The notes under the pieces: model-generated
What the model saw: only the letters and a program-made list of their open reading frames with translations
What the model was told of the DNA's origin: nothing
Databases searched by the model: none
Made by a program: the position numbers and the translations under genes
In this document: one piece after another, positions 13,119 through 61,454 of the stretch
How positions within the stretch are numbered: the first letter of the stretch is position 1
How the letters are laid out: each line of letters starts with the position of its first letter
Source of the DNA: [Phialemoniopsis] sp. UDSM-2020
Taxonomy: Eukaryota; Ascomycota; Sordariomycetes; Thyridiales; Thyridiaceae
Direction: 5' to 3'
DNA: 64,000 nt
Assembly: GCA_018873225.1 (NCBI GenBank)
Contig: JAEILZ010000001.1
Span: forward strand, 4,960,001-5,024,000

Positions 13119-14456
13119 GCTCGGGTCAGGGGAAGATTTGGGGTAGGAACCACGGGAGTACATATACATACACACGATTTGATGGAAGGAACAAACTAAC
13201 GCGGCGTTGGGGGTCTATTGAGTTTAAGACTTGTTTGGTTAGACAGTGCCGTCATAGGAACAGAAATCACAACTATTATCAGTACTTATGCTGAGCCCAA
13301 TACACTTTGTCAGAGCAACGAAGTGTGCCTTTGCCCATCGGAAGAAGTAAGTAGAGTTCCTAAACATTAGACTACAAATCCCGAGATTTCTGAGTGACTG
13401 AGAGTTGGAAGTCATATTTCTAGTTTTATCACAATTACGATACGCAAATAAACAATCCCACTTGACAGCTGTTGAAGATCTGAGGTACGTAGATCGTCCA
13501 TTAGGCAATGTTACAACACTCATACTCATGCTGAATACTTTCCAGAGATGGACCCCAATCAGTTCTGAGCACAGGGGAAATCATGGCTCGGGCGGATGTT
13601 CAAGCCTGTGGGTGTCATGGGCTAGCATTTTATGGCTACGAAGCCCTGATTCCGGCGGGTGATTAGGACCTGCTTGGTTTAGTAGCGAGTGTAGTCTTGA
13701 TCATGACATCAAAAAGACGTCCTACACCAATGCAAGACAATCGGGGATGCATGTATTTGGCCCAGTTGGTCTGGTGATACTGTTAAAGGAGGAAGTGTGG
13801 TCCTGTACCTCTGTATCTTTTTGGCCCCCACAAGAAGGTGAGTGACAGCTGCATAGGTGACGAGATGCCAGCTGGCGTCGCGCCGACCACCTTCGCAAGA
13901 GTGCACAGACCACCAGCAACCACTTCCGCAAGCGGCCTAGCGTGAAGCAGCCTCCCATTGTCGCCTTCAGCCGTGCGTCGAACCTCCTGGACAAACAAAA
14001 AAAACTGCTAGTGAGGCGCTGGAGGAGCTTCGAGGCAGCTAAACCTCTCCTCTCCCTTCCTTTGCACTTCTCACCACCTCTCCATCCTCACCCCAGTCCT
14101 GGTCAACGTCTGGTGTCTCATCTCGCGACATCAAACAGCTGAGGGTTTATTGCATTTACGACTTCTTGCATTTCAGTTTCTTCATTTCTTCGCATGCGCG
14201 CTGCCCCCTTCCCCTGTGACAGCAGAGAGGGCATCGCGCGTTGTTGCGCGCCTGGGTCAACCTCGAATTTCTAATCCACCCTCCGGACTTCCCACCCCAC
14301 GACCGCATCCCCGATCGACCCTCGACGACTTTCTCTCTCTTTCGACATTCATTTCATCGAGACTTGCGCTGCCAAGCCCGTCGGTTCTCTTGGTCAGCTT
14401 GATCGGTCGGATAAGATTTCGGCTTCTCATCATATTCGCCTCACTTTGCCGTCAAT
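13119..14456. other. Intergenic, 1.3 kb, with RPB2 leader
   Basis: From about 14040 to 14420 the plus strand is strongly pyrimidine-rich (CTCTCC, CCTCACC, TCTCTC runs), the usual look of a core promoter and 5' leader for highly expressed filamentous-fungal genes. The rest shows nothing I can name. Confidence 0.5.
14040..14420 (+). promoter_or_regulatory. CT-rich promoter/leader of RPB2
   Basis: Dense C/T tracts on the coding strand end about 40 nt before the RPB2 start codon. No TATA box is visible, which fits a housekeeping promoter. Confidence 0.45.
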
Positions 14457-17400
14457 ATGGCCGACTACGACGATGGCTACGAGTACGAGGCGGAGGACTA
14501 TGGCGATGAGGGCGACGAGAGCATCACCCCCGAGGATTGCTGGGCGGTCATCTCGGCCTACTTTGACAAGAAGGGTCTCGTCTCCCAGCAGATCGACTCT
14601 TTCAACGAGTTCACCACGACGACCGTTCAGTCGCTTGTCGATGAATATTCCCACCTGACCCTCGACCAGACCAACCCTCCCTCCACCGCCGACCGAGTCA
14701 TCAAGATGCGCCGCTACGAGATCAAATTCGGCAAGGTTTTGGTTTCCAAGCCCACCATGTCCGAGGCCGACGGTCAGCTTTCGATGCTCGTGCCTTACGA
14801 GTGCCGTGATCGAAATCTGACCTACTCGTGCCCCCTCTACGCCAAGATCACCAAAAAGGTATCTGTCGCTATCGAGGAGCCCATTGAGGAGGACGAGCTA
14901 GACCCCGAGCAAAAGGCGGAATACATTGCCACTGGCGAGCTGCCCACGCGGTATCGATGGGAGGAGGAGTCGAGTGATGATACCGACGCCGGAAAGGACA
15001 AGCAAGGCAACGAGCGAGATAGAGTCTTCATCGGGAAGCTGCCTATCATGACAAAGTCTAAGATCTGCCATCTTGAGCAGGAGAACGAGGACGGCCTCTT
15101 CCTTCTCAACGAGTGCCCTTACGACCAGGGTGGCTACTTCATCATCAACGGTTCCGAGAAGGTTCTGATCGCCCAGGAGCGCTCCGCCGCCAACATTGTG
15201 CAGGTCTTCAAGAAGGCACAGCCCAGCAAGTTTTCGTACACTGCCGAGATTCGCAGCGCCCTCGAGAAGGGTTCGCGTCTGATTTCGTCGCTCGCCATCA
15301 TGCTGCTGAACAAGCCCGACACCCGACAAGGCTTTGGTCACACCATCCAGTCTACCCTACCTTACATCAAAGACCAGCTGCCCATCGGTATCGTCTTCCG
15401 TGCACTTGGTGTCGTCTCCGACGAGGATATCCTGAACCACATTTGCTACGACCGAAACGATAGCCAGATGCTGGAGATGCTCCGGCCCTGCATAGAGGAG
15501 GCTTTCTGCATCCAGGATCGAGAGGTGGCTCTGGACTTCATCGGCAAGCGTGGCCAGAACGCCCAGGGTATCAGCAAGCGCGACCGTGTCCGTGCCGCAC
15601 GCGATATCTTGCAGAAGGAGATGTTGCCTCACATCTCTCAGAGTGAGGGCTGCGAGACCCGCAAGGCCTTCTTCCTCGGGTACATGGTGCACAAGCTGCT
15701 GCAGTGCGCTCTCGGTCGCCGCGATATCGACGACCGTGATCACTTTGGAAAGAAGCGTCTGGATCTTGCCGGTCCTCTTCTGGCCAAGCTCTTCCGTAAC
15801 ATCATCCGCAAGATGACCTCCGAGTTGATGACGTATCTGAGGCGTTGCATCAACGACGGCAAGTATTTTGACCTCAACGTCGGCGTGCGCCACCAGACCT
15901 TGACCAACGGTCTGAAGTACTCCCTCGCCACTGGCAACTGGGGTGACCAGAAGAAGGCGATGAGCTCAACTGCTGGTGTGTCGCAGGTGTTGAACCGATA
16001 CACGTTCGCGTCAACCCTGTCTCACTTGAGGCGTACCAACACTCCCATCGGTAGAGATGGAAAGCTGGCTAAGCCGCGCCAACTGCACAACACTCACTGG
16101 GGTCTCGTCTGTCCGGCAGAGACGCCCGAGGGACAGGCTTGCGGCCTGGTCAAGAACTTGTCTCTGATGTGTTATGTCAGTGTGGGAACCCCGGCAGAGC
16201 CCATTGTGGAGTTCATGATCGCGAGAAACATGGAAGTCCTTGAGGAGTACGAGCCGCTGCGATATCCCAACGCAACCAAGATCTTTGTCAACGGTACGTG
16301 GGTCGGTGTGCACCAGGACCCGAAACATCTTGTCACGCTGGTGCAGGGACTGCGACGTAAAGGAGTTATTAGCTTCGAGGTCTCCCTGGTCCGTGATATC
16401 CGTGACCGAGAGTTCAAGATCTTCTCCGATGCTGGCCGTGTCATGAGGCCGTTGTTTGCGGTCGAACAACAAGACGAGGGCGAGAGCGGTGTCACCAAGG
16501 GCTCACTCATCCTGACCAAGCAGCACATCGCGAACCTCGAGCACGACCAGACAGTGGCCAAGGATGATGCTTGGGGATGGGACGGACTGGTCAAGGCAGG
16601 TGCCATCGAATATTTGGACGCCGAGGAGGAGGAGACCTCCATGATCTGCATGTCTCCCGAGGATCTGGAGACGTACAAGCTGCAGAAGGCGGGTATCGCT
16701 GTGGCGGACGAGATTGGCGACGATGACCTCAACAAGCGTCTCAAGACCAAGATGAACCCAACCACGCACATGTACACCCACTGCGAGATCCACCCCAGTA
16801 TGCTGCTGGGTATCTGTGCCAGCATCATTCCCTTCCCGGACCACAACCAGTCCCCCCGTAACACCTACCAATCCGCCATGGGTAAACAAGCCATGGGCTT
16901 CTTCCTGACCAACTATTCTCGGAGAATGGATACAATGGCCAACATTCTCTACTACCCCCAGAAGCCCCTCGCCACCACGAGGTCTATGGAGTTCCTCAAG
17001 TTCCGTGAGCTGCCCGCCGGTCAGAACGCAATCGTCTGCATCGCCTGTTACTCTGGCTACAATCAGGAAGATTCCGTTATTATGAATCAGAGCAGTATCG
17101 ACCGTGGACTGTTCAGGAGTCTGTTCTTCCGCTCCTACACCGACTCTGAGAAACGGGTCGGTATCAACATTGTCGAGAGGTTCGAGAAACCGTTCCGCAG
17201 CGATACGCTACGTCTCAAGCACGGCACATACGACAAGCTGGATGAGGACGGAATCATCGCACCTGGTGTCCGTGTGTCGGGTGAGGATATTATCATCGGC
17301 AAGACGTCGCCCATCAACCCCGACAATCAGGAGCTTGGCCAGCGCACGCAGGCACACGTCAAGCGTGATGCCTCGACCCCCTTGCGTAGCACCGAGAGCG

Positions 17401-18305
17401 GCATCATCGACTCCGTGGTCATGACCACCAACCAGGACGGTCTCAAGTACGTCAAGGTCCGTGTCCGCACGACCAAGATCCCGCAGATCGGTGACAAGTT
17501 TGCATCTCGTCACGGTCAGAAGGGTACCATCGGAGTTACGTACCGACACGAGGATATGCCCTTCACGCGCGAGGGCATCACCCCCGACATTATCATCAAC
17601 CCTCACGCCATTCCGTCGCGTATGACCATCGCCCATTTGATCGAGTGCCTGCTCAGCAAGGTCTCAACACTCAAGGGCATGGAGGGCGACGCGACGCCGT
17701 TCACCGATGTGACGGTCGACTCGGTGTCGACGCTGCTGCGGCAGCACGGCTACCAGTCGCGCGGGTTCGAGATCATGTACCACGGGCATACGGGCCGCAA
17801 GATGCGGGCCCAGTGCTTCTTTGGCCCGACGTACTACCAGCGCCTGCGGCACATGGTCGACGACAAGATCCACGCCCGTGCGCGCGGCCCCGTCCAGATC
17901 ATGACGCGCCAGCCCGTCGAGGGTCGTGCCAGGGACGGTGGTCTGCGTTTCGGAGAGATGGAACGTGATTGTATGATTGCCCACGGCGCCGCGGCGTTCT
18001 TGAAGGAGAGGCTGTTCGAGGTCTCGGACGCGTACAGGGTGCACATCTGCGAGATTTGCGGCCTGATGACGCCCATTGCGTGAGTTCTTTCCCCGTCCAA
18101 TAAAAGTGAGGAGTCTGCTTGCTAACATTCTGTGATCACCAGAAATCTGACCAAGCAGTCGTTCGAGTGCCGGCCGTGCAAGAACAAGACCAAGATCGCG
18201 CAAGTGCACATCCCCTACGCGGCCAAGCTGCTGTTCCAGGAGCTGGCTGCCATGAACATCGCGGCGAGGATGTTTACGGACCGGTCTGGTGTTTCGATCC
18301 GCTGA
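14457..18305 (+). CDS. RPB2: RNA polymerase II second-largest subunit
   Basis: Core catalytic subunit that, with RPB1, forms the Pol II active site. Exon 1 is 14457-18079, one intron is 18080-18142, and exon 2 is 18143-18305; 1261 residues, close to the family's usual 1220-1260. Conserved pieces include an acidic N-terminus, [19 protein letters not shown] in the lobe/fork region, [18 protein letters not shown], and [12 protein letters not shown] in the hybrid-binding domain. The C-terminal zinc site has paired cysteines (CEICG and CRPCKNK), and the only intron falls between the two pairs. This is a standard fungal phylogenetic marker. AATAAA lies at 18742. Confidence 0.99.
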
Positions 18306-33839: not shown

Positions 33840-36800
33840 ATGAACTTGGCGACAGAATCGTCGATCTGCTCCGGTGTCAGCGGAGAAGATATGGTGGATC
33901 GATTCGAGAAGATTGCAAACTTGAACCGAGGTGCGGCTCTGAGTGACGATGGCCTGATGCTTGCAGATTCCAGATATCAAGAATTGGAAATATGCGAGTT
34001 GTAACCTGTGAGTCTCCAAGCCTTCTTTGTCGGTGAAGATCTATTTCTAACAATGATCTGGTAGTGTAGCGAAATTAGCAGACCAACTTAAAATCAGCAG
34101 GGTGTGTCGCATTTGCCGTACGATCTCTGTTCCTCGTCGGCTCGTATTTTGTCAAGGTTGCGGACGGGCGAGGGAATCAAAACGGCCCGCACATAGAACG
34201 TGTCTTGCACGGTCTCGTGACCACCGTCTTCACATGGACGAAGAGGATGAAGGCGACTCTGATACAGAACCCTGCGAAGAAAGGGAATTTCGGAGATTTG
34301 TGTGGACCCATTGGTTGTTCGACTCCAGTCTGCTTGACGAGGCAAAGTTGGCATCTTTGCACCTGGACGGGCTGTGGTCAACCTGGTTCGGAGTTCCGCG
34401 TGACCAGAAAGGAAACTATCCCGAGCTGCTTATCTATCCACGCCTTGATTCCCTTCTTTCTGAGGCAGTAGATAAGCCAGCAAGACAGTATCCGAGGGTT
34501 GTCTCCTTCGTCGGCGACACTGGATCAGGTAAGAGTACCTTGATCAGATCAATCATTCTCATGTCTTCTCCAAAAGACCCACCGGATTTCAGAGCGCCTA
34601 TTCCCGGAGCTAGGGATGATGTGTTCGACTCCACGAGCAGTGATGTACACGTTTTCGCTGATCCCGGGACTATATCATCAGAGGATCCGCTGGTCTTTGT
34701 TGGTAAGATTCACTCTGACGGCTTCTGCAGCTTCCACCACCTGACCGAATATAACAGATAGCGAAGGGTTCTCCGGCTCAGACAATCCTATATCCCGCAA
34801 GATTTTCTCCGAATCTGGCAGAGATATCGATAACGATATTCGCCTTACGGACGAGAACGCTCGAACTGCGTACGAACAATACTGGGATCACATGGAAACT
34901 GCCACACAGAAGATCGAATTGCGTTGGGGAGAGATGGGATACGCCGATGATCCTTCTGATGGACCCGGGACTGTTACAACGGAAACAAGAAGGAAGGTCG
35001 TCAAACACGTGTACCCTAGGCTTCTGTATGCATTTTCAGACGTCATATGCTTTGTATCCAGCAATCCCAAGTAAGGACGCCCGCTTCTACAAATCCCTAT
35101 TTGCTAGCTGACCTTTGAGAAAGAGCCTCCCACGGTTTCTTAGAGACATTGTTTGCTTGGGCAAAGGATGGTCATGAAAAGACACTGAATCAGCGTATTC
35201 GACCGAGGTTGATCATCATTCTAAACAAGACGGAGCCGGAATCGCACGCTACACTATTTAATGACAAGGAGGCTGCCTCCAGGCTTCTTCGAAGCTTCGA
35301 AGGTTCAGGCAGGTTCGACGAACTTCGGCGGAGATGGAGGCGGCGAGGGAAAACCATCAGGACGGCAGAAGAGCTTGTTCTATGCTACTACGACTCCTTT
35401 CGCGTCATCTCTATCCCTACCTACCATAAAGACCCGACCACAGCAAGTCAGATCGCGAAACAGATCCACTATTTGTACACGCAGATTCGAGCTGTTTCCG
35501 ACATGATTCGAAATAAGCGGATCGCAATGAGCATGGACCTTGATGTTGCGAATCTCGAAGCGTACCTTACAAAAGCCGCTACTGTACTTGGGCAAGACTA
35601 TAAAGACTCTGTTGACTTTCACCAAGTCACAGACGGGGATACGATTCTCCCAGACTCTTGCGGTGACCACCTAATGCAAGTACTCTGGAACATGGCAAAA
35701 GCCCGAGAACTTCATCGAACAGACAAGATTGGGGGCGAAGCAAAACTCATGAAAGACATGGTTCCGTACCTGGCTGCTTGCGTCTCTCTACAGGTGGAGA
35801 TACTAAGGCAACGTATGTTTCGATGAGTTTTTCGATGAATCAACTCGAATTGGCTTGCTAATATTGAACAGCCATGGAAGCTGAAGCAAAGCGGGATCAA
35901 CTATTCGGCGAAGCCAGAAAAGGCCTTCAAGAGTTTCGAAACAAGTATTGGAGGTGTGAGTTTCAGAACGAGTCGGGCCGAAGGTGTACAAATTACCTGG
36001 AAAGCCACGATAAAGGCCATCAATTCCTCTCCAAGCGACGTGAAAGCTGGTCCAGCCGCGTATCCGACGATCTGGACGACACAGTGGCTAACGGCCGGTA
36101 CCAGAGCTCATGCAATGTTGATGCTCTGGTTGATGGATTGTGGGAAGAGTTCTCCCATCTTTCCAGAGAACAAGACACTCACCGACAAATGATCTACGCT
36201 GCAAGGCACGGCGGCCTTGTCAAAATCAGTGGCCAGCGTACCTGTATGTCTTGTCTATCCAGATGCCCGACCAACATGCTTCCGTGCCATCCTTTGCAAC
36301 ACGGTATCTGTGAGAATTGTATCTACTTGTTCAGTGAGCCGGGTCACAGTGACTCGTTGGCTTATCTACGAGAGTGTCCACTAGGCTGTCGGTTTACTGT
36401 TACTCCTCCATGGACAATTCGCGTCAAGCCAAAGCCTGCTGGTGCCCGTATTCTAAGTCTTGATGGGTGAGTCTTATCTACCCTACCCTAACCCTAAGCT
36501 TCAAGAGTGCAATTAACCTTAAAATAGGGGTGGCGTTCGTGGAATTGTCGAGCTAGTCATATTGTCTGAGATTGAGAAGACCATAGGCTTGGGCATACGT
36601 ATTCGAGACCTCTTTGACTTGGTCGTCGGGACCAGTACCGGTACGTGGCATGCCTAGCCTTTTGAGGATATGGAATAACATTTGAAAGGTGGGATAATTG
36701 CGTTGGGCGTGTTTGAGAATGAATGGAATCTCACCCGCGCCAAACGCATTTTCAGATCTGTGGCTAAGAGAGCTTTCACACTTAGACCACGGTTGTCTGT

Positions 36801-37917
36801 GCCAATGGTTTCCAGCCTTATCGAACCATTCCTCGACCACAAATACACCAATGCAGGGATCGAAACTACTCTTCGAAGCTATCTGGGCGAAGACTACCTC
36901 TTCGGCCAGTCGCAGGCTCGATCGTCAACCTCATTTTCCTTTTCAGAAACTAGGAAGCACGGAGACGCGGTCAAAGTCGGAGTGGTGACATGCGCACAGG
37001 GAAGAAATCATCCCGCGCTGCTGGCAAACTATTCGCGTAACGTCGGGTGTAAGAATAAGGAAGGGCGAACAGGTACGTGATCCATAGATTCCGTTCCGAT
37101 GAGCACGAGAGACTTACAAACGCGGCCAAAGTGGACGACTACCTTCATCGGGCAGACCGTCAGAAAGATGACTTTAACATCTGGCAGGCGTAAGTGATCG
37201 CGTCTCCCCTCCCGCAATACGTTTTGGCGCACTGTTCTGATCTTATGTAGAGCACGTGCAACCTCTGCTGCACACACTCTTTTCAAACCATACTATCATC
37301 GCGCGACAGACAGGGAGTATGTGGATGGGGCCGTGGTCCGGAATAACCCAGTCGCTCTTGCTTATGCCGAAGCGAAGAAGATCTGGAGCTCATCCAAGCC
37401 ACCCGACATCATCGTTTCCATCGGCACAGGCATTATGGTGGACGAGGATGGCAAGTTCGTGCGCGAGGACACTCGAATGCAGAACCTGAGGAAGATACTG
37501 CCTGGAGGCCTCCGCGAGAAAGTGGAAGTCGGGCTCGACATGATCCAGTCAACACTTGACTGCGAGCGCGAATGGACCAAATTTGAAAAAGAGCTTAGTG
37601 GTAGGCTCCGTCAGAATAGCCACCGGCTCGACGTTGCACTCGCTCGCAAACCTCCACATCTCGATGACATTGAAAGCCTCATTCCACTCGGGGACGAGAG
37701 CCAGGACTACCTATCGTCGAGCTTTCGATTTCACGAGGTTGGTCCCGACGGAAGATCTAGGAACAAAGTGATCAGGCATGTCACCCCTGGTCGATTTGAC
37801 CGGCAATTTCTTGAAAGCAAGGTCGAGTTTGAGATCTCCCCTGGACGCTATGAAAGACGGGTTGAGGTGCAATTTCCGGCCCGTGGGATGAACTGGGAGC
37901 CTATTTCAGGGTTTTGA
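33840..37917 (+). CDS. Zinc ribbon - P-loop GTPase - RING-like - patatin fusion
   Basis: Predicted intracellular multidomain phospholipase. Nine exons: 33840-34000, 34065-34702, 34758-35070, 35124-35812, 35872-36466, 36528-36640, 36689-37072, 37132-37189, 37251-37917; 1205 residues, all phases closed. Order: short N-terminus; Cys pairs at about 68-71 (CRIC) and CQGC; P-loop GDTGSGKST at about 204-212, with DSEG as likely switch/Walker B and LIIILNKTE as a GTPase G4-like motif. A cysteine/histidine finger follows at about 725-770 (CMSC, CPTNMLPCH, CENC). The C-terminal patatin domain starts at about 793 with oxyanion motif GGGVRG, nucleophile Ser835 in GTSTG and Asp1009 in VDGAVVRNNP. ARATSAA and VSIGTG are further patatin motifs. 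Exon 8 (58 nt) is the least certain join. Both catalytic residues are present. Confidence 0.88.
36481..36496 (+). repeat. Telomere-like CCCTA(A) repeats in an intron
   Basis: Three degenerate CCCTA/CCCTAA units in a row at the start of the fifth intron of the patatin fusion gene, matching the complement of the fungal telomere unit TTAGGG. Short, so chance is possible. Confidence 0.35.
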
Positions 37918-39223: not shown

Positions 39224-42086
39224 TTAGCTTTCATACTTGATGTTGAACGGCGGAAGCTTGATAGTATCATAATCCGTCGCATTGTTCCGATCTCCAAAGA
39301 TCCGCAAGGCCCTCACGAGGAAAGCATACTTGCCGGCCGGCAACACCGTCCCCTCCTGCGTCATCCCCGTGAACGGCGACACAAAGTACCGCCGCGGCAC
39401 CCACTCCGCCGGAAACGCGCCGATGCTACCCACAACCTCGACGCCGAGGACCTCCGTCGTCGGCACCTCCACCTCCGTCTCGAGCGCGACGATATCACAC
39501 CGCAGCACCGCCGTTCCGGCGTCAAGTTGCATCACCGCAGCAGGCAAGTTAGGCAACGGGTTTACCCCTTCGGCCGGCAACACCGGCGACGTCGGCGGCA
39601 CCAGCGTAAAGTTGGAGTTGGCCGGGCTCGGCGCGAGGCTAAAATCGCTGTAGCGGAAGAGGAAAGTGCGCTCCGGGTCCAGCGTCTTGGGCGCCGCGTA
39701 CATGCTGCCCGCCACGCCGAGGTACGGCACCGCTAAGTTCTCCCCATTTGTCCCGTTGAGCGTGACGTACCCGCTGTACACGGGTAGGAGCTTCTCATCG
39801 AGCCCCTTGGGAGGGGTGGGGCGGATGATGAGGTCGGCGGAGCCGCCTGCCGGGATGGTGATCTTGTCGGATGAGAAGCTCAGGCTGGCTGCTGCGCCCT
39901 TGGCGATCGGGTTGGGGAAGGACGCTGGGTATAGCCTGTCGTTGGTGTAGGTGTACATCGTCAGTGCGGGCGCGTGGCCTACAGCGAATGTCACGGCATC
40001 CTTGCCCGTGTTTCGCAGCGTAATGGTCGCGCTGTCGACGAAGTGATCTGTGTCGTTGAACGATATACTCGACGGGCTCAGCACCGTGAATGTGTTGGCC
40101 GCGTTGAATGCTTGGACCAGACCGGCGCCTTGCTGCGGTACAGGCGCGAACTCGGGCACGACGCCGTCAACGCCGAGGAATTTCTTAGCGTGTGCCGTCG
40201 ACGAGAGCAGGCCCGTCAGCGTCGCGGGATCCTTGATCCCACGTGCTTGTATCAACAGCGCCATGATGGCCGCTGTCTGCGGCGTGGCCATCGAGGTTCC
40301 CGACGCTACTGCGAAACCACCGAGGTCCAAGGGGAAGGTGGACAGGACATCGCCGCCGACAGCCGCGAGGTGCGGGTAGACATCGACTTCCCAGGTTGGG
40401 CCCCAACTAGTGAAATAGTTGACGAGATCACCGCGGAGTGCGCCGCCGGTGTTGGTGTAGGAGATCGCGATGGGCGGCGCGACGACGGGGTCAGTGACCT
40501 TGACGAGGATAGGAGTGCCAGTGGTCAGGAGCTGGCGCCACTCCTTGCCCTGCTGGGCGGTGACCATGCCTATGCCCTTGAGAGAGGGGAAGTCGCCGTC
40601 GCTGAGAACGGGGGAGAAGGTACTGAGAACTGTCTGTTAGCTCCGGCATATAAGAAGGTGGACCGGGAGTACTTACAAGCTGTCGGTGTAGTAATACAGC
40701 ATGATATACTCAGCCCCCTTAGCAACGAGATTGTTAGCAGCAACCCACGACCCGCAAATACCATACTCGACAAGCACAATCTTGCCGCTCAGGTCAGGCG
40801 TGTCGTCCGACAGCGCGCCGCCGCAGACGTTCCAGCTGCCGTCGGCCGTGTGCTCGGGCGTCACAACCCACAGCGGTAGCGTCACGTTGGGATACTTGGG
40901 CCGGCCCTCCTTCCAGCCAAACTCCGTCTTGTTATCACACCCAGGTCCGACCGCGGCCCGGCCCTTCACCAGGACGAGCGGAATCTCGCTGTTCTCCACC
41001 GACGCGACAGCTGTCACGCCGTGCCCGTCGGCCGCTGTACTCGCGTAGAACAAGCCCGCGCCGCCGTCGTTGCCCGCCGCCACGGTGCACGGCACGCCCG
41101 CGTCCACGATGCGCGACACCGCCACCGCCCAGGGGTCCTCGGCCCACCCGGAGCTGCCGCCGATCGAGCACGTGATAATATCGCAGCCGTCCTCGTACGC
41201 AGCGTTGAAGGCCGCGACGAGGACGTCGGTCGCCGTGTTGTCCGCGCACCCAAAGACCTTGTACATGCCGAGCTCGGCGTCGGGCGCGGCGCCCGAGAAG
41301 CCCAGCTCGTTGAGTTCACTCCGGGCACCGATGATGCCGGCCACGTGGGTGCCGTGGCCCTGGCAGGTGTCGATGGGGTCCGGGTCCGGGTGCGGAGCGT
41401 TGAAGCCGTCGTAGGCGTCGCCGACGAGGTCGGTGCCAAAGGAGATGGGGCAGCCCGGGCCGAAGCAGCCGCCGAGCGCCGGGTGGCGGTAGTCGACGCC
41501 CGTGTCGATGATGCCGATACGCACGCCCTTGCCTGTGATTCCCTGGGCGAGGAGCTTGTCGACCTGGGTCTGGACGTGCGTGGACAAGGTGCTGTTCAGT
41601 GCGCCGTCTGCTCTGCGGGCTAGCCTGGAGGGTGCGGATGGCTGGGTGATATTGTTTTGGTCCAGCCCGGCTGGTGTGATTTTAGAGTCTGGCAGAGGCA
41701 CGACGCGGACTGGCCAGACTTTCTTGACGGCGGGGACGCTTGCGATTTTCATGGATGTCTTGACGGGGTCTACGTCGATGCCCTTGTCTAGCTGAAAGGA
41801 GGATCCCCTGAACAGCGAGTACGACAACGTCATGCGCTTGGAGGCCGGAAGGCCTTTGCTGTGGAGATCGTTGTAAAACGACGACTCGTCATTCTGCACT
41901 TTCATTAGTGCGTGGCAAGTAATTGGGGGAGTGGCAGCTGCTGACTTGACCATCGTTGAACTCGACGATGTATGCGCCTGGGACGGTGTCGGTCCTCTTG
42001 TTAGGGTCATACCCGACAGGAAGTGCAGCAAAGACAGAGTGCGCCGCCAGAGCCAGGCTCAGCAACCCGGAGCTCCAGCGAACCAT
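39224..42086 (-). CDS. Secreted subtilisin-like protease (Vpr type, PA insert)
   Basis: Extracellular serine endopeptidase of family S8. Exons on the minus strand: 42086-41946, 41893-40677, 40622-39224; 918 residues. Signal peptide about 1-20, then an I9-type propeptide (PGAYIVEFNDG). The catalytic triad is Asp177 (GIIDTGVDYRHP), His230 (GHGTHVAG) and Ser563 (GTSMATP). Between His and Ser, after the AGNDGGAG oxyanion region, sits a protease-associated (PA) domain (GKIVLVEYGICGSWVAANNLVAKGAEYIM shortened: start GKIVLVEYG, end KGAEYIM). The C-terminal 270 residues have beta-sandwich (Fn3-like) character. The start at 42086 was chosen because it gives the signal peptide and has a TATA box about 90 nt upstream. 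The acceptor at 40623 was chosen for phase. Confidence 0.95.
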
Positions 42087-50697: not shown

Positions 50698-51284
50698 CTA
50701 ACCAAAGGCTGGCTCCTGCTTGGCGCCGTCCTGAGCGCCGAGGTAGCTGACCCTGTCCTTGCAGTAGAACTCGACCTCGATCTTGTTGTCGAGGCTGGCC
50801 TTGCCATTGTCGAGACCGCCGGCCTTTATGACGATCAAGCCAGCCATGACGTCGAGCTTCGTGTACAGACTAGAGCCGCAGGTCGGGCAGAAGAAATGGC
50901 GGTTGTTCTTGCCGGACGCACCAGTGACATCGTAGTGCTTAGGGGTTCCTGCTAGATTGTCAGCCCACATAGACTGTCAGTTGCACCCCCAACTCCATCT
51001 GACATACCCTTGGTGACCTTGAACGAGTCCTCGGGAACTACGGCGTTGGAGGTGTAAGGACCGCCAGTCCACTAAAATCACTGTTAGAAGTGCTGAGGAA
51101 GCATGTCTAAGCTCAAGCAAACTTGCCTTTTGGCAGTCGAGGCAGTGACAAAGAGCCGTCACCTTAGGCTCGCCTGTGCTGTTCTTAGTAGCCACAAGGT
51201 CAACACACCTCTCTCACCAGTGAACCTACTCGAGCTCTCGTAGGCGATCTCGCCGCACATACAGCTTCCTTGTAGAGCGGCCAT
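50698..51284 (-). CDS. GFA/CENP-V-family zinc protein
   Basis: Member of the glutathione-dependent formaldehyde-activating (GFA) family, small zinc-binding proteins; enzymatic role in fungi is mostly unproven. Four exons on the minus strand: 51284-51226, 51178-51127, 51071-51008, 50948-50698; 141 residues. Zinc ligands follow the family order: GSCMCGEI near the start, CHCLDCQKWTGG in the middle and FCPTCGSSLY later. The intron 51126-51072 begins with GC (AAG|GCAAGT) and ends TTTTAG, so it is a GC-AG intron; all other joins are GT-AG. Length is standard for the family. Confidence 0.9.
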
Positions 51285-52067: not shown

Positions 52068-53006
52068 TCATTTTCCCTGGCGAGCGAATGCCAAGGGGAT
52101 TGAGATTGAACTTCCCCTTTGAAAGAGAGGTTGTGGATGTTCGACTTCGATTTTCCTGAGCTCCTGATTGTGTTTGTCCAACTCGGAATTGGAAGAGGCT
52201 ATTGATTTTTGAACCTGTTTGATAGCGTCCTCCTTGTCCTGCTGTGCCTTCTGGAGAGCCCTGATTTCGCATTCCAGCTTAACCTTTTGAGAATGAAGAG
52301 CAGCCATATCCTGTCCCAATTTGGCTCTATTCTGTTTACATGCTTGAATCTGTTTGGTCTTTGCTTGGAGTTGTTCAGTACGCATTGCTTTGATGGCAAA
52401 CTGGACTCTATCATAAAGGCTGTGGGCACTCAGTGATCTAGAGTTGCAGTCCCAGTCTTTGACTGCCCGTCCTATTGCCGGAGCCAGCTTGTCGTACGTG
52501 CTCTCGCCCCAGCTGGCAGCGGCGATCAATTCCTTCGCGTAGTCGCCATCGCCATGGAGTGAAGCCAGCCCTGCGCAACAGCAGTCAAGAATGACGAGGA
52601 CGGCACATCGCGCTTCCTCGATGATGCCTTTTACTGTGGACCACGGCATGGATTTGCCAGGATCTTCCCGGTGACTTGTATGATTTTTAGCTTCTCAACG
52701 TTGATAATAGGACAAAAGGCGTTTGACAAAAGCATCTTACCTCCAAAGGATCAACTCGTCATTTTCTTCCTTACCGTGCGCGTTCACGTAGATGACCCGA
52801 GGTGGAGTTCCCCTTAGGCGCTTTTGCAAACGTCTTCGAAACGATGGCAGGTCGCACACATCGAAGTGAAGACCCCCATCACAAGCGAGTCCAATCGATG
52901 CGAAACTTCTGGCAACTGTGTCATTCTCTTGGGCTTGGGATTCAAGGTCGGAATGTTTGAAGGAGAGAATGAAAAGTCTGCCGATAACTTTGGTGTTGCG
53001 GGCCAT
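52068..53006 (-). CDS. Caspase-like (C14/CHAT-type) coiled-coil protein
   Basis: Predicted cysteine protease of the caspase/metacaspase fold with a long coiled coil, a build seen in fungal cell-death and NLR-associated proteins. Exons on the minus strand: 53006-52741 and 52674-52068; 290 residues. The catalytic His is in VIYVNAHGKEEND (His77) and the catalytic Cys lies in VLVILDCCCAGLAS (Cys120-122; which one is nucleophilic needs alignment). LILW before the join and STVKGII after it match the caspase core order. From about 183 to 270 there is a heptad-like charged helix (KTKQIQACKQNRAKLGQ through NQELRKIEVE). It is shorter than a metacaspase and has no Pro/Gln-rich prodomain. Domain call fairly sure; protease activity inferred. 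Confidence 0.82.
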
Positions 53007-54289
53007 TCTCTGGCCGTTTTTTTGTAGTCAAGTGGAGAGTGGAGGACATGAGGGTGGTCTGTCTCTAGGCGCTGAACTACCTAAAGTAGGTAAGAGGTAG
53101 ATGGAGGTGCGGATGATAGGGGACTTTAATGTGGTTCAAGCCCCCTTCCCGCCACGTCAATGGCTGGCAAGGGTTCACAAAGGTTGTCAGAACTGGCTGG
53201 AGAAGATAAGGTAGCCGGAACTTGCTGGCCAAGGGGAATGTTCTCTTTTGGCCTGACAAAGGCCAACAAAGGTGGCGCCTGACCAGCAGACTAGGTACAA
53301 GTAGTCTGGACCTAGGTTCCTAGGTATCTGGTACAGTGCACCTTCAGGTGCAATCAAGTACTGTTAACCTACTATAGGGGATAACAGAGCCTCATGACTG
53401 TCGCTTCCGCCAGGTCAAAGGTCTGCATCTACCCTAAGAACGAGCCCTAGATGGCCAAGGAGGATTACCAGAACTAAGGTAGGTGCATGTAGCTGTCAAA
53501 GTGAGACTATTTTCATCCTTGGTTCATACACATCTTAGTTTTCCGGATAACCTCCTCTTAGGCGCGGTAAGAACACTTGGTTCTTGACTCCCCGAATAGG
53601 CAAACCAAGATGGCATACAATGATGCAAAACTCAGCGCGCTTTTAACATTTTTAACGGGGATCTGGTCTCTATCACTTGGAAACGAAGTTTAAGCATACT
53701 AGAGGTCCTAATTTTGGCCCTAGAGCTGAGTTGTTCTGGCGATCTTCACGCAACCCCTAGTGGCTCTGATTCAGGCGAGCGAAGGCTGAGCTCTCGAACC
53801 GTACAAACCCTTACTGTGGCTCTGGTCCGGCCCCCTCATGCATTCATCAAAATCTTGGCACGTAATCGCTTTTTTAATAACGATGCTGTTCGCTCATTGT
53901 CCATTCGTGCGTGGATAGCGTTGATCATGCGAAGACACCTGCACGTGAAGTCGGTCGGCGAGCTCGGGAGGAATTGCAAGACTCCGCCGATGCAGCTGTC
54001 AGACGAAAAATAGGTACCACAAAAAGAGCAAATAAGGAAAGCATCAATTGTGCTGTGATACTTTCCCCTACACGCTTCGCTAGCTTTAGTGGTCATCATT
54101 CAGAGCATTTTTGGCTCTGTGTCATGACGCACGGTACAGCAGATCGGCTCGAGCTTGTCCCGGCAGTAGTTAGAACGATCCCTCCAGGGCTGTTACCCCA
54201 CTCCGTTTCAGACGCCCCTATGACCTCCAGGGCTAATCCCGGTCGCGTAACTAGCGCATGACGCGTTTCACTGCCGGCAAAGTTTCCAT
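53007..54289. other. Intergenic, 1.3 kb, repeat-like words
   Basis: Divergent spacer between the caspase-like and Tse2-like genes. It is dotted with CTAGGT/CTAAGG-type words (about 53081, 53291, 53311, 53476) and a short perfect hairpin at 53337-53352. It looks like decayed repeat or mobile DNA, but no transposase, LTR or terminal repeat is recognisable. Confidence 0.4.
53337..53352. repeat. Short perfect inverted repeat
   Basis: TGCACCT and AGGTGCA arms of 7 bp separated by TC, within the CTAGGT-rich spacer. Function unknown; may be chance. Confidence 0.35.
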
Positions 54290-55015
54290 GTGTCGAAACA
54301 TCTCGCAACATTCGCCATGGCTTTGCCGTCCGCAAGGCCGGTTGCGACCTTCTTCACGGTATTTCCTAAGGAGTTGTTCAGAGTCAATCATGGCCCCAAT
54401 ATCAGATTACGGGTCAAGGATCCTCGCCGCGCCAAGTACGACATCATCGCCGACGAGAAAGGGCGGGTGCAGCCTAAACCGCCGGACACGAAGACTTGCA
54501 AGGGTAGGAACGTTCAAACCGGCCTTCGCGTGAATACGGCTGACGGTGTTAGCTCCAAATGGCCTGTATTTGCGACCCAACTCGCCTGGTCAGCAGACGT
54601 TGATGAGGTTGAACCCGAAAGTGGATGATATGAAGGTGTATGGTATCCCCAAGGGTAGGCGCAGTATCCTGGATCGATGATGCTGCCATGAGAACGCCTG
54701 TTAAGGTTGAACAGGAACCAAGGTCCCTAAGAATCTGATTCTTATACACGAAAAGACAGAGTTCTACTCCCTTCAGCCAGCAAGGAGTATGTCAGTCAAG
54801 AGTAGGTACTGGCATAACAGGCACGGGCTGCGCTCCATGAACAAACAGCTGACTGCACGCGCCGAAAAGGACTGAATGACGAACTTACGAAGCTGATGGA
54901 GACCAAAGGCAAGGTCTTCACCAAGTCCGAGTGGTTGTCGGCCTATCCCAAAGCTACTGATCACGGGGATGAAGGTGAGGCGGGATCATCTCCCGAGGGA
55001 GAGGCATCATTTTGA
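54290..55015 (+). CDS. Tse2-type ADP-ribosyltransferase-fold protein
   Basis: Predicted member of the fungal proteins related to the bacterial type VI effector Tse2 (an ADP-ribosyltransferase-fold toxin). Exons 54290-54503, 54553-54654, 54715-54801, 54870-55015; every phase closes, 182 residues, about the size of the family. No disabling break is seen. Supporting pieces are short: FFTVFPKELFRV near the start, a DEKGRVQP segment before the first intron, VYGIPKGT at the end of exon 2, and SLQPA before a C-terminal helix that begins LNDELTKLM. An in-frame Met at 54317 is an alternative start. There is no signal peptide, so an intracellular role is likelier than secretion. The family call is from pattern memory, not a search. 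Confidence 0.68.
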
Positions 55016-55371
55016 TGTGAAGGACAATTGCAACACCGCTGTACTGTAAGATATGGCAGAGTCAAATCTGATGTGAGGACCAGTCGTTCCCACTGGGCAG
55101 ACGTGAATGTTTTTAATTGGACTAAGGCACCAATCACGATAATTGGTCGTGTCGTCCTCGAGGGGCTTTCAGCAAGGCGGTTCTCGACTCGCATGCATGC
55201 ACTTCGCCCCGCGTCACTCGTCAGGCTGAGCCTAATCGTCCACATCCCTACATCGCGCAAGATGGGGGGGACAATCAATCTTCTCACATTCAAACTTGCT
55301 CCAGTACAGGCGCCATAGCGCTTCGTCTCCAGATCATTCTCAAAAGTACGATCGACCATCGTCACGAAATC
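55016..55371. other. Intergenic, 356 bp
   Basis: Short tandem gap between the Tse2-like gene and the fungal-N gene, presumably the latter's promoter. Nothing else seen. Confidence 0.5.
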
Positions 55372-58300
55372 ATGGCAGAAGCTGCGGGCTTGGCAATTGG
55401 TGTGCTGTCATGCGGGCTGCAGCTGTATTCGGGCATCGACAGCTTCATCCGCGCCGCAAAGGACCGGCGCCAAGAGATCTCCGACCTATCCTCCGCCGCC
55501 GACCGTCTGCAAACGAAAGTTCAGTCATTGCTGGGCACCTTGGCCACACTACCCGTAGGATACAATAGCCATGCAGGCGCCGTAACCTCAATTGTGGAGG
55601 CGTGGGTGGCGGACAAGAGTGACTTGGAGGCTTTCTTGGACAAGGTTTCCGGCTGCGATTCCTTCGTGGATAAGGCGAACTACTGGCTTAAGCATCGGAA
55701 GGAGCTTTCAGCGTTCAGGGATCGACTTGGCTTTCGAATCAATGAACTGACTCTCGCGTTGGATAGCCTAGGAATGTAGGTGGAACCTTGGCCTCAAACC
55801 CAACTTGGATCCTAGTCTGACCGTTATCACTGTGTAGTGGTCTACTTTCCGAGACTCGAGCAACTACTAACAAGACACTGACAGTTGCTGAAACTACGGA
55901 GGTTTCGATGCGAAGCGTTCTTGACCAGCTGCTCTATATGAAGAGATTCCATGCCACCACGTTCGATAGCATTTCCGAGCTTTCCAAGACGGCTATCACC
56001 ACCAGCAGACAGGTAAATAAGGTTGCCACTGATGTCACCGCCCTACATAACGATGTCAACCAAGTGCAGAACGGCATTGGTTGTCTACAAGACGATAACA
56101 AAGAGATTCTGGAACTCGTCCGGGAGATGGCTCTCAGTATCAGAACTTCGCATCTGACAAGCGCTGCGTCCCAAGAAGGAAGACGTGGCATAGAGCTGTA
56201 CAAGGACCTCATATCCAGCCAGATCACCGCTGCTAATGAGACACATGCTGTAGGTGCAGGATTTGAGTCGCTGATGTATGGATCATTGGCTGACAACCCG
56301 TACTCATAGCGAACCAATGCAAGGATGTGGACGGGGCGTATCATATCGAAGCCAAGTGACCAGCAGGCTCTTCTCAACACTCTGCATTTAACCGCTCAAA
56401 ATCAAGATGACATCCACAACTCGTTATACAGTTTGAATTGTACATGCAAGCCCCGGGAGGCTCGCCGTGTCTCTCAAGCTCGGTGGTGCTGGTTCGGCGT
56501 GTTTTCCGAACAAAGCGAGGGCATATGTCATAGCGAATCCTGTCCGATGTATCCGGTTCGAGTTGGTGGTCGGAGTAAATCAATTGGCCTCCGGATCCAT
56601 GGGATCTTGTCCAGTTCAATCACCCTGACCTTGGCACTGAGAACTGGCAGTGGAGGATTCTCCCTTGCACCAAACCTAAAGTACATCGCACTAGTCGACG
56701 AATTGCAACACCCTGCTTTTCGATTTATGGAAGAAGTGTTCTATCTGCCGCGGACCCCGTTCGATGTCGGAGATGCGAGGATGTTCATGGAAGTTGGCAT
56801 CGATCGCCTTATGCGCAGCATTCAGAAAAATGAATTGTCGCTTGATGTGCGCTCTCACCGCAAAGGTATCCTGGAATACGCAGTACAGGTATGTTCTCTT
56901 TATAATCAACCTCCATATTCATTTGGGACTGTATTGATCTTCCGCCGAAGTCAATTGGCTTCTCTCTACAATACTGCAACATATATCCTTGGGAGAAAGT
57001 CCAAGAAAGACCCCGAGCCGCCTACGCCCTCATCAAATACATTCAAGATAACCACCTTGGTGCTGTAGACACGCCTGCGTAAGCCATCCAGACATGCGTT
57101 TATGGTGTCCGGCACCCATTCTATTCTTACTGAAGCCGTTGAATGATTTCTTTTGCGAGTCATCTTGATTACCCCTGAGTAAATTCCTAGGCTGACTAAT
57201 GGCGAATTTAGTGTCCTTGAATACATTGTCAAGAACGTGACTCAAGCTGGGCACTTCTCGAGGAGGCTGTCGTCACTAACATTCTTGATGGACGGTAGCC
57301 CATTCGCACCCTATGTTTTCTTGGATGCATACTTATCCGACCACGTTCTACAAGAAAGTATGTCTATTTGGTAAGATGATATCGTCGAACGTTGTGACTA
57401 ACTGCTCGGAATCCTTTTGCCTCTAGAACACGAGGTAGGGCGACTTGGCACTGCCATCTTGCGCCGCTCCATTGCCGAACGAAAGCAGGCCCTTGAAGCT
57501 GAGCCAACCAGTCCGCTCCTGGCTATTGGGCCTCTTAAAACCGGACAGCTGAGCCTGTACTGGCCTGAGGGCTTAAACCTCATACTAGAGTATTTAATGC
57601 GGAGGGGGTACTGGAGAGATGTTCTTACCACCTTTCTTCAGTTTACTAGCCGTGCAATACAGTATACGCACCTCCTTGACTCAGAGCCAGGACCAGTCAG
57701 CGACTGCGGACGCTGCGCTTTATCGCAATCCTTCGACATCATAATCCAGTCCAAGTGCGGTATCCCGAGGTCGTTCATTCATTGGTTCTTGGCATGTCGT
57801 TGGCAACGAGACGCGATTCTGCACGAACTACGAAGACGCAGTGAAGGATTAAAACAGCTGGCGAAGCGGCATTTGCCCCATCGCGCAGTCGAGCGACTGC
57901 ACCTGCATAACGATACTCTGTTGGATAGTCGGGCCGCCGAGGTCGTGCAAATCCTCACCAATATGGGTATTCGCATCCCAAGAGACTTACTGCCTCCCTT
58001 GGAAGGACCTGACCTAGATACTGGTCGGTACCAGCAATCAATTTGGCATGCTTTTGTCCGCGAGACTCGCAGAGTCGAGGACAGTGCGGCCTGGCAGGCG
58101 ATATTTGACGCAGGCTTCAATGATATAGACTGCTACGACGATGATTCAATGACCCCACTGGCACGGTTGTTCTTCTACCGACACAGGAGGTGTCCAAGTT
58201 TAGCTCTTTGGTTGATAAAGAATGGTGCTCAGCTTCGAAAAGGAGTTAGCATGATGCACACCGCAACTCGACAAGCCACAATGACCCATACCACTGCCGC

Positions 58301-59150
58301 TCACTGCGTAGCGCGGGGTCTCGGCGAAGATGTACTCGAATATCCTTCGAATACGGATACCATTCTTATGAGGGAGGTTTTAAAGATGAGGGAGACAGAT
58401 CAATGCTCATGTGCTTGCGCACCAAACGGCTGTACTCCGCTGACATGCCTGATCGGAAGTCACGTAACTTGCTTTGCGCAATGTTATTCTGGCCGCTTAC
58501 GCCCCTTGCCTTGGTGGTTCATTTGGACAGACTTCACTAAGGCCTTCAGTCCTGTCACTCTCACAGAAGTCAAAGACAAAATCCGGCGCAAAGTTGCGGA
58601 AGACGTGACGAACCTGGAATTCGTTGGTGTTCAGTTCCCCGAGCTGACTACAATACTCGTGCGCATGCTTTCCATGAAAATTCTGGGAATACGACATACT
58701 TGCTGTCTCTACTTATTCGACTCTTTCGAGCCCCACGGTATGGATCGTTGGGATGATTATCAAGGTTTCGAGGAAGAAATGGAGCAAATGAAAGACGAAG
58801 ATGGCAATGTTCTGCAGGACTTTCATAGTTTGATGAATGAGTTTGAGCGGAGTATCAAGGATACCGAACTGTCCGCCCTGGACTTCATACTCGGGCCATG
58901 GTGGAACAGAATTTGGAAAGTAGCCCAAGACTGGGGTTCGACAGCACAGGACGGGTCGAATTGGGAAAAGGTCGGGGTGCACAAAGTGTGCGTGGGCCCC
59001 GAGCCCCCAACGAGACCGATGCCAGAATATGATATGAGCAGCTCTGAGGATCGCCGTCTCTACCTAACTCGACGGGTCGAGGAGATATTTGATCAGACAC
59101 AAAAGCTCCCGCGGCTGTTTACAGGGACTACGATGGAGAGAACGTACTAA
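55372..59150 (+). CDS. Large protein with fungal STAND-type N-terminal domain
   Basis: Uncharacterised 1130-residue protein. Six exons: 55372-55775, 55838-56249, 56310-56888, 56951-57078, 57212-57357, 57427-59150; in frame throughout. Residues 1-136 are a helical domain (AEAAGLAIGVLSCGLQLYSG, then FRINELTLALDSLG) of the fungal N-terminal type (PigL_N/NACHT-associated) found at the start of many STAND and ankyrin proteins. A heptad-like region follows (QVNKVATDVTALHNDVNQVQ). The middle has NCTCKPRE and FGAGGF-like GSGGFSLAPN, then YPWEKVQERPRAAY. The C-terminal 575 residues contain cysteine-rich pieces (CSCACAPNGCTPLTC) and TPL-type helices that recall ankyrin-like units, but I cannot see a clear NACHT/NB-ARC P-loop. 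Function unknown. Confidence 0.8.
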
Positions 59151-59748: not shown

Positions 59749-61454
59749 ATGGCGCCTGGACTGCTCGTGGACCCTCCTTCTAGCCCCGAGACGTCAACGA
59801 CGGTCAACAAGGCCGATAGACGTCTCCCGGTGACACTGCTGAGTGGCTTTCTCGGCGCTGGCAAGACAACGCTCCTCGAGAACATTCTCACTTCCCCAGA
59901 TCATGGCCTTCGTATCGGCGTCATCGTCAACGATGTCGGTGCTCTGAACATCGACGCAGCCCTCCTCTCAACGCACGATGTCACCCGCAAGGAGGAGCAA
60001 GTAGTCGCCATGCAAAACGGCTGTATTTGCTGCACTCTGCGTGGCGATCTGCTCGAAGAAGTTGCCCGTCTCGCCGCCGATAAGCAGGTCGAGTACCTCG
60101 TGATTGAGAGCTCTGGCGTCAGCGAGCCGATGCAGGTAGCTGAGACCTTCTCTGAAGAGTGAGTGGAAGCCCCTCAACTCGCCCATGATTGCATGTCTGA
60201 CCTGTCCCGATCAACAGATTTGCAGAAATGCACATCGCCGCAGGGCACGACCTTGAAGCCGAGACCGAAGGCGATATCGAGAGCAACAAGCGCCTGGCCG
60301 CCATCCTCAAGTCCGGCGGCCTGTCCCGCGTCGCGCGCCTCGACACCTGCGTCACGCTCGTCGACGCCGTCAACTTCATGCAAGATTTTGCGACCGCGGA
60401 CTTCCTCGTCGACCGGCAGGGCGACACAGTGCCCGAGGAGGACGACCGCAACATCTCGGATCTTCAAGTCGACCAGGTCGAGTTTGCCGACGTCGTCGTT
60501 ATCAACAAGTGCGATCTCGTCTCGAAGGAAGAGGTCAATCGCGTCAAGGGCGTGATCAACAAGCTCAACCCTGACGCCAAGACAGTGACGACGGTCAAGT
60601 CACGTCTGAACCTCAAGGACATCCTAGACACTAGGCTCTTCTCGTATGAGAAGGCGGCCCTTGGTGCAGGGTGGCTGAAGAGTCTGTCGGAAGAGATCAG
60701 CCCCGAGACAGAGGAGTATGGCATCGGCACATTCGTATACAGGGCTCGAAGGCCGTTTCACCCTGAGAGGCTCTGGGAAACAATCAAGTCGGTGTTTGTT
60801 GTCATTCAAACCGAGTACCAACTCGAGGGAGAGGGTATGGAAGTCGACATTGAGAACGACGATGAAGAGGAGGAAGACGAGGATATGGAGGTGGATGAGG
60901 AAGAGCAGCCCCAGCTCGACCCCAAAGCTCGTCTGGCTTCTAAGATGGCAGATGTAACCTTTGGCCCGCTTCTACGGTCTAAAGGCTTCTTGTGGCTTGC
61001 TACGAGGTCATCTTTGGTAGGTCTCAGGCTCACATTCTTTGTCACTCATACCGTGCTAACTCCATGTCCTTAGTTCGGCGAGTGGTCTCAAGCAGGCGTC
61101 ATGCTCACGATCTCGGGCGGCGACCGCTGGCGTTGCGAAGTGCCCGAGGACGAATGGCCCAAGGATCCTCAAGTCCGAACGGCCATCACCCGCGACTTCG
61201 AGGGCCGATGGGGTGATCGGCGTCAAGAGCTCGTCTTCATCGGTCAGCAGATGCGCACCGGCGGGGAGGAGCGTCTGCGTAAAGCGATGGACTACTGTCT
61301 TTTGAACGACGAGGAGTTCGCAGCCTGGGAGAAGGCCATGGAGACCGAAGATCCCGACTCCACACTGGCCGACATCTTCGAGGACGGCTTCGAGGATTGG
61401 CTTGATGCCAGCCACGAAGGACATGATCATGGTGACGGAGGTCATAAGCACTAG
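59749..61454 (+). CDS. CobW/G3E GTPase, zinc-chaperone type (ZNG1-like)
   Basis: Metal-chaperone GTPase; relatives deliver zinc to methionine aminopeptidase. Exons 59749-60158, 60218-61016, 61074-61454; 529 residues. P-loop [10 protein letters not shown] at about 33-42; the zinc-binding CxCC motif is GCICC (Cys92, 94, 95); ESSGVSEP is the switch/Walker B region; NKCD is the G4 motif. The CobW C-terminal domain begins with [19 protein letters not shown]. An acidic stretch ([12 protein letters not shown]) is inserted within it, and the protein ends with a His-rich tail ([13 protein letters not shown]) likely to bind metal. The N-terminal extension before the P-loop is short and lacks a clear targeting signal. 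Confidence 0.93.

Follow-up and report, generated by a model that had tools for sequence, protein, structure and literature searches.

The genome assembly analysed comprises 44,176,824 bases in 11 contigs, and the stretch studied (C1:4960001-5024000; 64,000 nucleotides in all, hereafter the window) carries three adjacent genes flanked by a GFA-family gene on one side and a CobW-family gene on the other (Table 1). The positions and strands given for the three genes by an earlier sequence-only reading were confirmed: a gene for a caspase-like protein (gene 1) lies on the minus strand, and the genes for a Tse2-type protein (gene 2) and for a protein with an N-terminal domain, a coil and a degenerate ankyrin-type part (gene 3) follow on the plus strand. 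When introns are allowed for, all three genes look intact. The GC content is 0.48-0.52 across the three-gene stretch versus 0.547 for the whole window; GC3 is 0.53 in gene 1, 0.64 in gene 2, 0.57 in gene 3 (computed from 708 codons of the first and last exons) and 0.69 in the CobW-family gene.

Table 1. Positions of the genes, introns and spacer at the locus in the window, and of the genes at the Tse2-type locus on C7.
Feature	Position	Strand	Structure and remarks
GFA-family gene	50698-50970	minus	flanks the three genes on one side
Gene 1, caspase-like with coiled-coil tail, 290 aa	52068-53006	minus	exons 53006-52741, 52674-52068
Gene 1 intron, 66 bp	52675-52740	minus	GT-AG; donor GTAAGA, acceptor CAAG
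Spacer, single-copy, no clear repeat family	53007-54316	none	repeat, RIP, Rfam and Pfam searches
Gene 2, Tse2-type (PF18648)	54317-55015	plus	exons 54317-54503, 54553-54654, 54715-54801, 54870-55015
Gene 2 introns	54504-54552, 54655-54714, 54802-54869	plus	GT-AG; same sites and phases in the C7(+) paralogue
Gene 3, N-domain/coil/degenerate-ankyrin-type, 1130 aa	55372-59150	plus	six-exon stop-free model
Gene 3 exons	55372-55775, 55838-56249, 56310-56888, 56951-57078, 57212-57357, 57427-59150	plus	
CobW-family gene	60201-61070 (frame)	plus	flanks the three genes on the other side
Tse2-type gene on C7	L030:4503-5130	minus	points away from the plus-strand copy
Tse2-type gene on C7, C7(+) paralogue	L030:5480-6295	plus	three introns
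N-domain/coil/ankyrin gene on C7	L033:124-3317	minus	about 2 kb past the plus-strand copy; Ank_2

The spacer between genes 1 and 2 had been described as dotted with repeats, a description that was not confirmed. Only weak two-copy matches were found between 52900 and 55400 (two families of 19 nt, with second copies at 79%, and two inverted pairs, at 79% and 82%), and the sequence from 53010 to 54310 matches nothing but itself genome-wide. No 1-kb step of the window exceeded the usual RIP thresholds; the TA/AT ratio of the spacer, 1.08, was the highest among the six stretches compared. Rfam gave no match in the window, and the open frames of the spacer gave no convincing match in Pfam.

Removal of the single GT-AG intron of gene 1 restores one frame, with a His motif (VIYVNAHG) in exon 1, a Cys motif (VILDCCCAG) in exon 2 and a coiled coil after it, the latter being the sole confident part of the single-sequence structure model. 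The spliced core was matched by the EACC1-associated caspase model of NCBIfam (NF047832; E 3e-6, 26.9 bits, residues 71-129) across both motifs of the dyad, with a score that lies far under the cut-off of that model (140). No caspase was found in gene 1 by Pfam scans, and the genome-wide search with PF00656 gave five matches, gene 1 not among them. Genome-wide, gene 1 has a single significant relative, at C1:1484530 (E 0.0013, 30%; alignment score of 105 versus a maximum of 48 in 500 shuffles), where a His motif, IIYYGGHA, is found in one frame upstream of the exon; a match on C4 at E 0.36 is confined to the coiled coil. The protein search with gene 1 gave none at E 0.001 among 682 candidates, a word-seeded search of a kind that can miss distant kin. 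The caspase-like label of the sequence-only reading thus stands as far as one weak model, the His and Cys motifs and one paralogue carry it, and the Pfam caspase models do not add to it. Because of the NF047832 match, the two motifs and the C1 relative, there is good reason to read gene 1 as a putative diverged caspase-like protein. Given this kinship and the presence of both motifs, its product would most likely be a cysteine protease of the caspase-like kind, in which the coiled coil would bring copies together and might thereby switch the protease on. The named systems with EACC1-type caspases are bacterial two-gene sets (PMC7159879), whereas gene 1 is fungal and has a coiled-coil tail.

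The assignment of gene 2 to the Tse2-type family is firm: in the profile search of the genome itself, which reads through introns, it scored 43.4 bits with PF18648 (cut-off, 26.6), exon 1 with its intron alone reaching 21.8, under the cut-off. A protein search for the family gave 89 hits at E 0.001, each carrying a PF18648 listing; 76 were named and 13 unnamed. The named ones, from genera including Whalleya, Metarhizium, Purpureocillium, Tolypocladium and Fusarium, are all taken here to be ascomycete on the basis of genus names. Together with the short GT-AG introns, this company marks the genome as evidently that of a filamentous ascomycete. Members of the family, mostly ascomycete proteins of about 150-170 residues whose names indicate no function, are widespread in ascomycetes; among the literature titles searched, none on fungal Tse2-type proteins was found. 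Gene 2 belongs, as a diverged resident copy, to an ascomycete family that carries the Tse2 ADP-ribosyltransferase domain, and its product, using NAD+, probably modifies a target within the fungal cell itself.

For gene 3, the length of 1130 residues stated earlier was borne out by an uninterrupted model with five introns, of which introns 3 and 4 are unsure, ranking top among 90 stop-free combinations without independent support. Neither NACHT, NB-ARC nor any other P-loop NTPase was found by Pfam scans of the exons or of the 1130-residue model, and because no NTPase was found the STAND-type (NLR) label proposed for gene 3 does not hold by this test. Gene 3 had no Pfam match of its own and was not found by the PigL_N search. 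Its N-domain is, however, related to those of two paralogues, one on C6 (26% identical, E 9e-11) and one on C4 (32% over 47 residues, E 1e-7); the former N-domain matched SesA at E 2e-4, under the gathering threshold, and the latter gave no SesA match. The evidence for the N-terminal helical domain proposed earlier is thus indirect and goes through the C6 paralogue. Modelled as a single sequence, the first exon gave an unspecific helical bundle (best pLDDT, 78.5; one of five models confident). Ankyrin repeats are present in the C4 and C6 paralogues, which align to the C-terminal part of gene 3 at 27-30%; in gene 3 itself, no ankyrin or other C-terminal repeat model of Pfam was matched. Gene 3 may be compared with fungal NLR/STAND proteins that have ankyrin repeats and an N-domain of the SesA or HeLo-like kind. 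The likeness lies in the relation of its N-domain to that of the C6 paralogue, with its SesA match under the threshold, and in the repeats of its paralogues; the difference is that no NACHT or NB-ARC was found. As judged from sequence, it resembles a STAND receptor minus its nucleotide-binding switch; such an NLR-like protein, in which a coil connects a helical N-domain to a C-terminal part of ankyrin type, is probably a sensor or scaffold.

As for the neighbourhood of the C6 paralogue (L029:3370-7092, plus strand), a gene with SesA-like and NB-ARC/NACHT domains (L029:7682-9901, plus strand) lies about 600 bp downstream of it, and the N-domains of the two match weakly (25%, E 2e-4).

The relatives of the three genes lie apart in the genome: that of gene 1 at 1.48 Mb on C1, those of gene 2 on C7 and those of gene 3 on C4 and C6. 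In the searches of this one genome, no second locus was found that joins two of the three families; the neighbourhoods considered around the relatives were 8 kb on C1, 10 kb each on C4 and C6 and about 28 kb on C7, with L031 on C4 left out. The spread of the families also differs, since the database with 89 proteins of the Tse2 type gave zero for gene 1 and likewise for gene 3 (none at E 0.001 among 7994 candidates, again in a word-seeded search that can miss distant kin). Because the relatives are dispersed, the family spread is unequal and gene 3 lacks an NTPase, the earlier proposal that the three genes form an effector/sensor/executioner set is unsupported. Nothing that was found shows the genes working jointly, and the locus is therefore probably an ordinary run of quickly evolving genes. 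We accordingly consider it likely that three separately evolving, apparently intact neighbouring genes are located in a GC-poor stretch, rather than a dedicated three-part system; the genes are real and belong mostly to the families named before, and the likeliest reading makes them separate fast-evolving neighbours. A role in programmed cell death may be proposed from kinship for each gene singly, and this would be a guess.

Besides the word-seeded protein search noted above, two points were counted against the reading as separate genes. Small gene clusters often make up fungal cell-death sets (PMC12881547). Of the clusters treated there, those of the het-S/nwd2 type and the protease-gasdermin clusters are like the present locus in having a few neighbouring genes from families with cell-death kin, and unlike it in that no NLR is present here and that the combination does not recur in the genome. 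The other point is the Tse2 locus on C7, where a gene with an N-domain, a coil and ankyrin repeats is also found, about 2 kb off.

This C7 neighbour is one ground for the view that genes 2 and 3 are a conflict pair, gene 2 being the toxic component, gene 3 its sensor or restrainer and gene 1 a bystander, which we regard as unlikely. Genes 2 and 3 are on the same strand, with 356 bp from the stop of gene 2 to the start of gene 3, and overexpression of bacterial Tse2 in yeast is toxic, although in co-culture its action was limited to bacteria (PMC6617251). The chance of such a neighbour at two of two Tse2 loci was estimated as about 0.0002 to 0.006 on the assumption that an ankyrin gene spans 3.5 kb and that the genome has 73 to 400 ankyrin loci (the lower figure is a minimum, the count of clusters formed by about 150 of 179 matches, one of them entered twice, 150 of 506 candidates having been scored); this estimate was framed post hoc and ignores the clustering of fast-evolving genes, which weighs against the pair. 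Moreover, the two ankyrin neighbours show no kinship to each other (the C7 gene compared with gene 3 by BLASTP), the two loci differ in orientation and spacing, and on C7 a further open frame separates the Tse2-type gene from its ankyrin neighbour. The C4 and C6 paralogues of gene 3 are without a Tse2-type gene, because genome-wide only C1 and C7 carry any, C7 being the only place outside the present locus. The ankyrin neighbour at both Tse2 loci is a faint lead for a Tse2/ankyrin pairing. A true pairing of genes 2 and 3 would mean a fungal conflict system with a Tse2-type domain at its core, from a family that is widespread in ascomycetes without a known role. The lead also carries a more general idea, which we hold to be highly doubtful: each fungal Tse2-type gene would supply the toxic half of a self/non-self or anti-invader locus, its partner being an NTPase-less N-domain/ankyrin protein that evolves fast and senses or restrains it. 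The two Tse2 loci of this genome would then have arisen as separate pairs, and the caspase-like gene of the present locus would have been added as an executioner.

Separate evolution of intact genes was also weighed against decay, that is, against gene 2 being a pseudogene in a degenerating block. In the six-frame reading, gene 2 matches the family piecewise in two frames, with four stops within the PF18648 match, and of the 47 columns that at least 85% of 72 relatives conserve (those of 150-200 residues among the 89, 17 being dropped) it keeps 32 when scored exon by exon, versus 44 in the C7(+) copy. The stops and frame changes, however, sit in three GT-AG introns that agree in position and phase with those of the C7(+) paralogue, so that gene 2 reads as a gene, not a wreck; it was this agreement that overturned the pseudogene as a candidate. 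A CTGAC branch-type motif is present in introns 1 and 3 of both gene 2 and the C7(+) copy and in intron 2 of neither, and the acceptor of intron 3 is AAG, not CAG or TAG, in both. All four exons of gene 2 are open, and genes 1 and 3 read as intact too. In the C7(+) copy, the mechanical open frame of 260 residues hides the three introns, and it exceeds the common length of the relatives because these introns are in frame. We therefore regard the six-frame stops as introns and not decay, and decay of the block as rather improbable. The three introns in common fit an old resident gene, and gene 2 is apparently an intact but diverged member of the family, more diverged than the C7(+) copy.

The reading in which gene 3 senses, gene 1 cleaves and gene 2 kills draws on three adjoining families that have relatives in systems of cell death or conflict and on the fact that fungal cell death usually involves small clusters, one of which has a caspase-like CHAT protease that activates gasdermin (PMC12881547), and is set aside as very improbable in view of the dispersal, the unequal spread and the lack of an NTPase in gene 3 described above. 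Three separate neighbours are thus preferred here.

Elsewhere in the window, a second GC-poor stretch (34057-37914, plus strand) contains one frame with a partial patatin-like match (E 3.5e-5, under the gathering threshold). A gene for a subtilase-type peptidase, with Peptidase_S8 and Fn3-like matches, is located at 39227-42058 on the minus strand, and the gene for the second-largest subunit of RNA polymerase at 14415-18080 on the plus strand, where seven of the seven Rpb2 domain models match.
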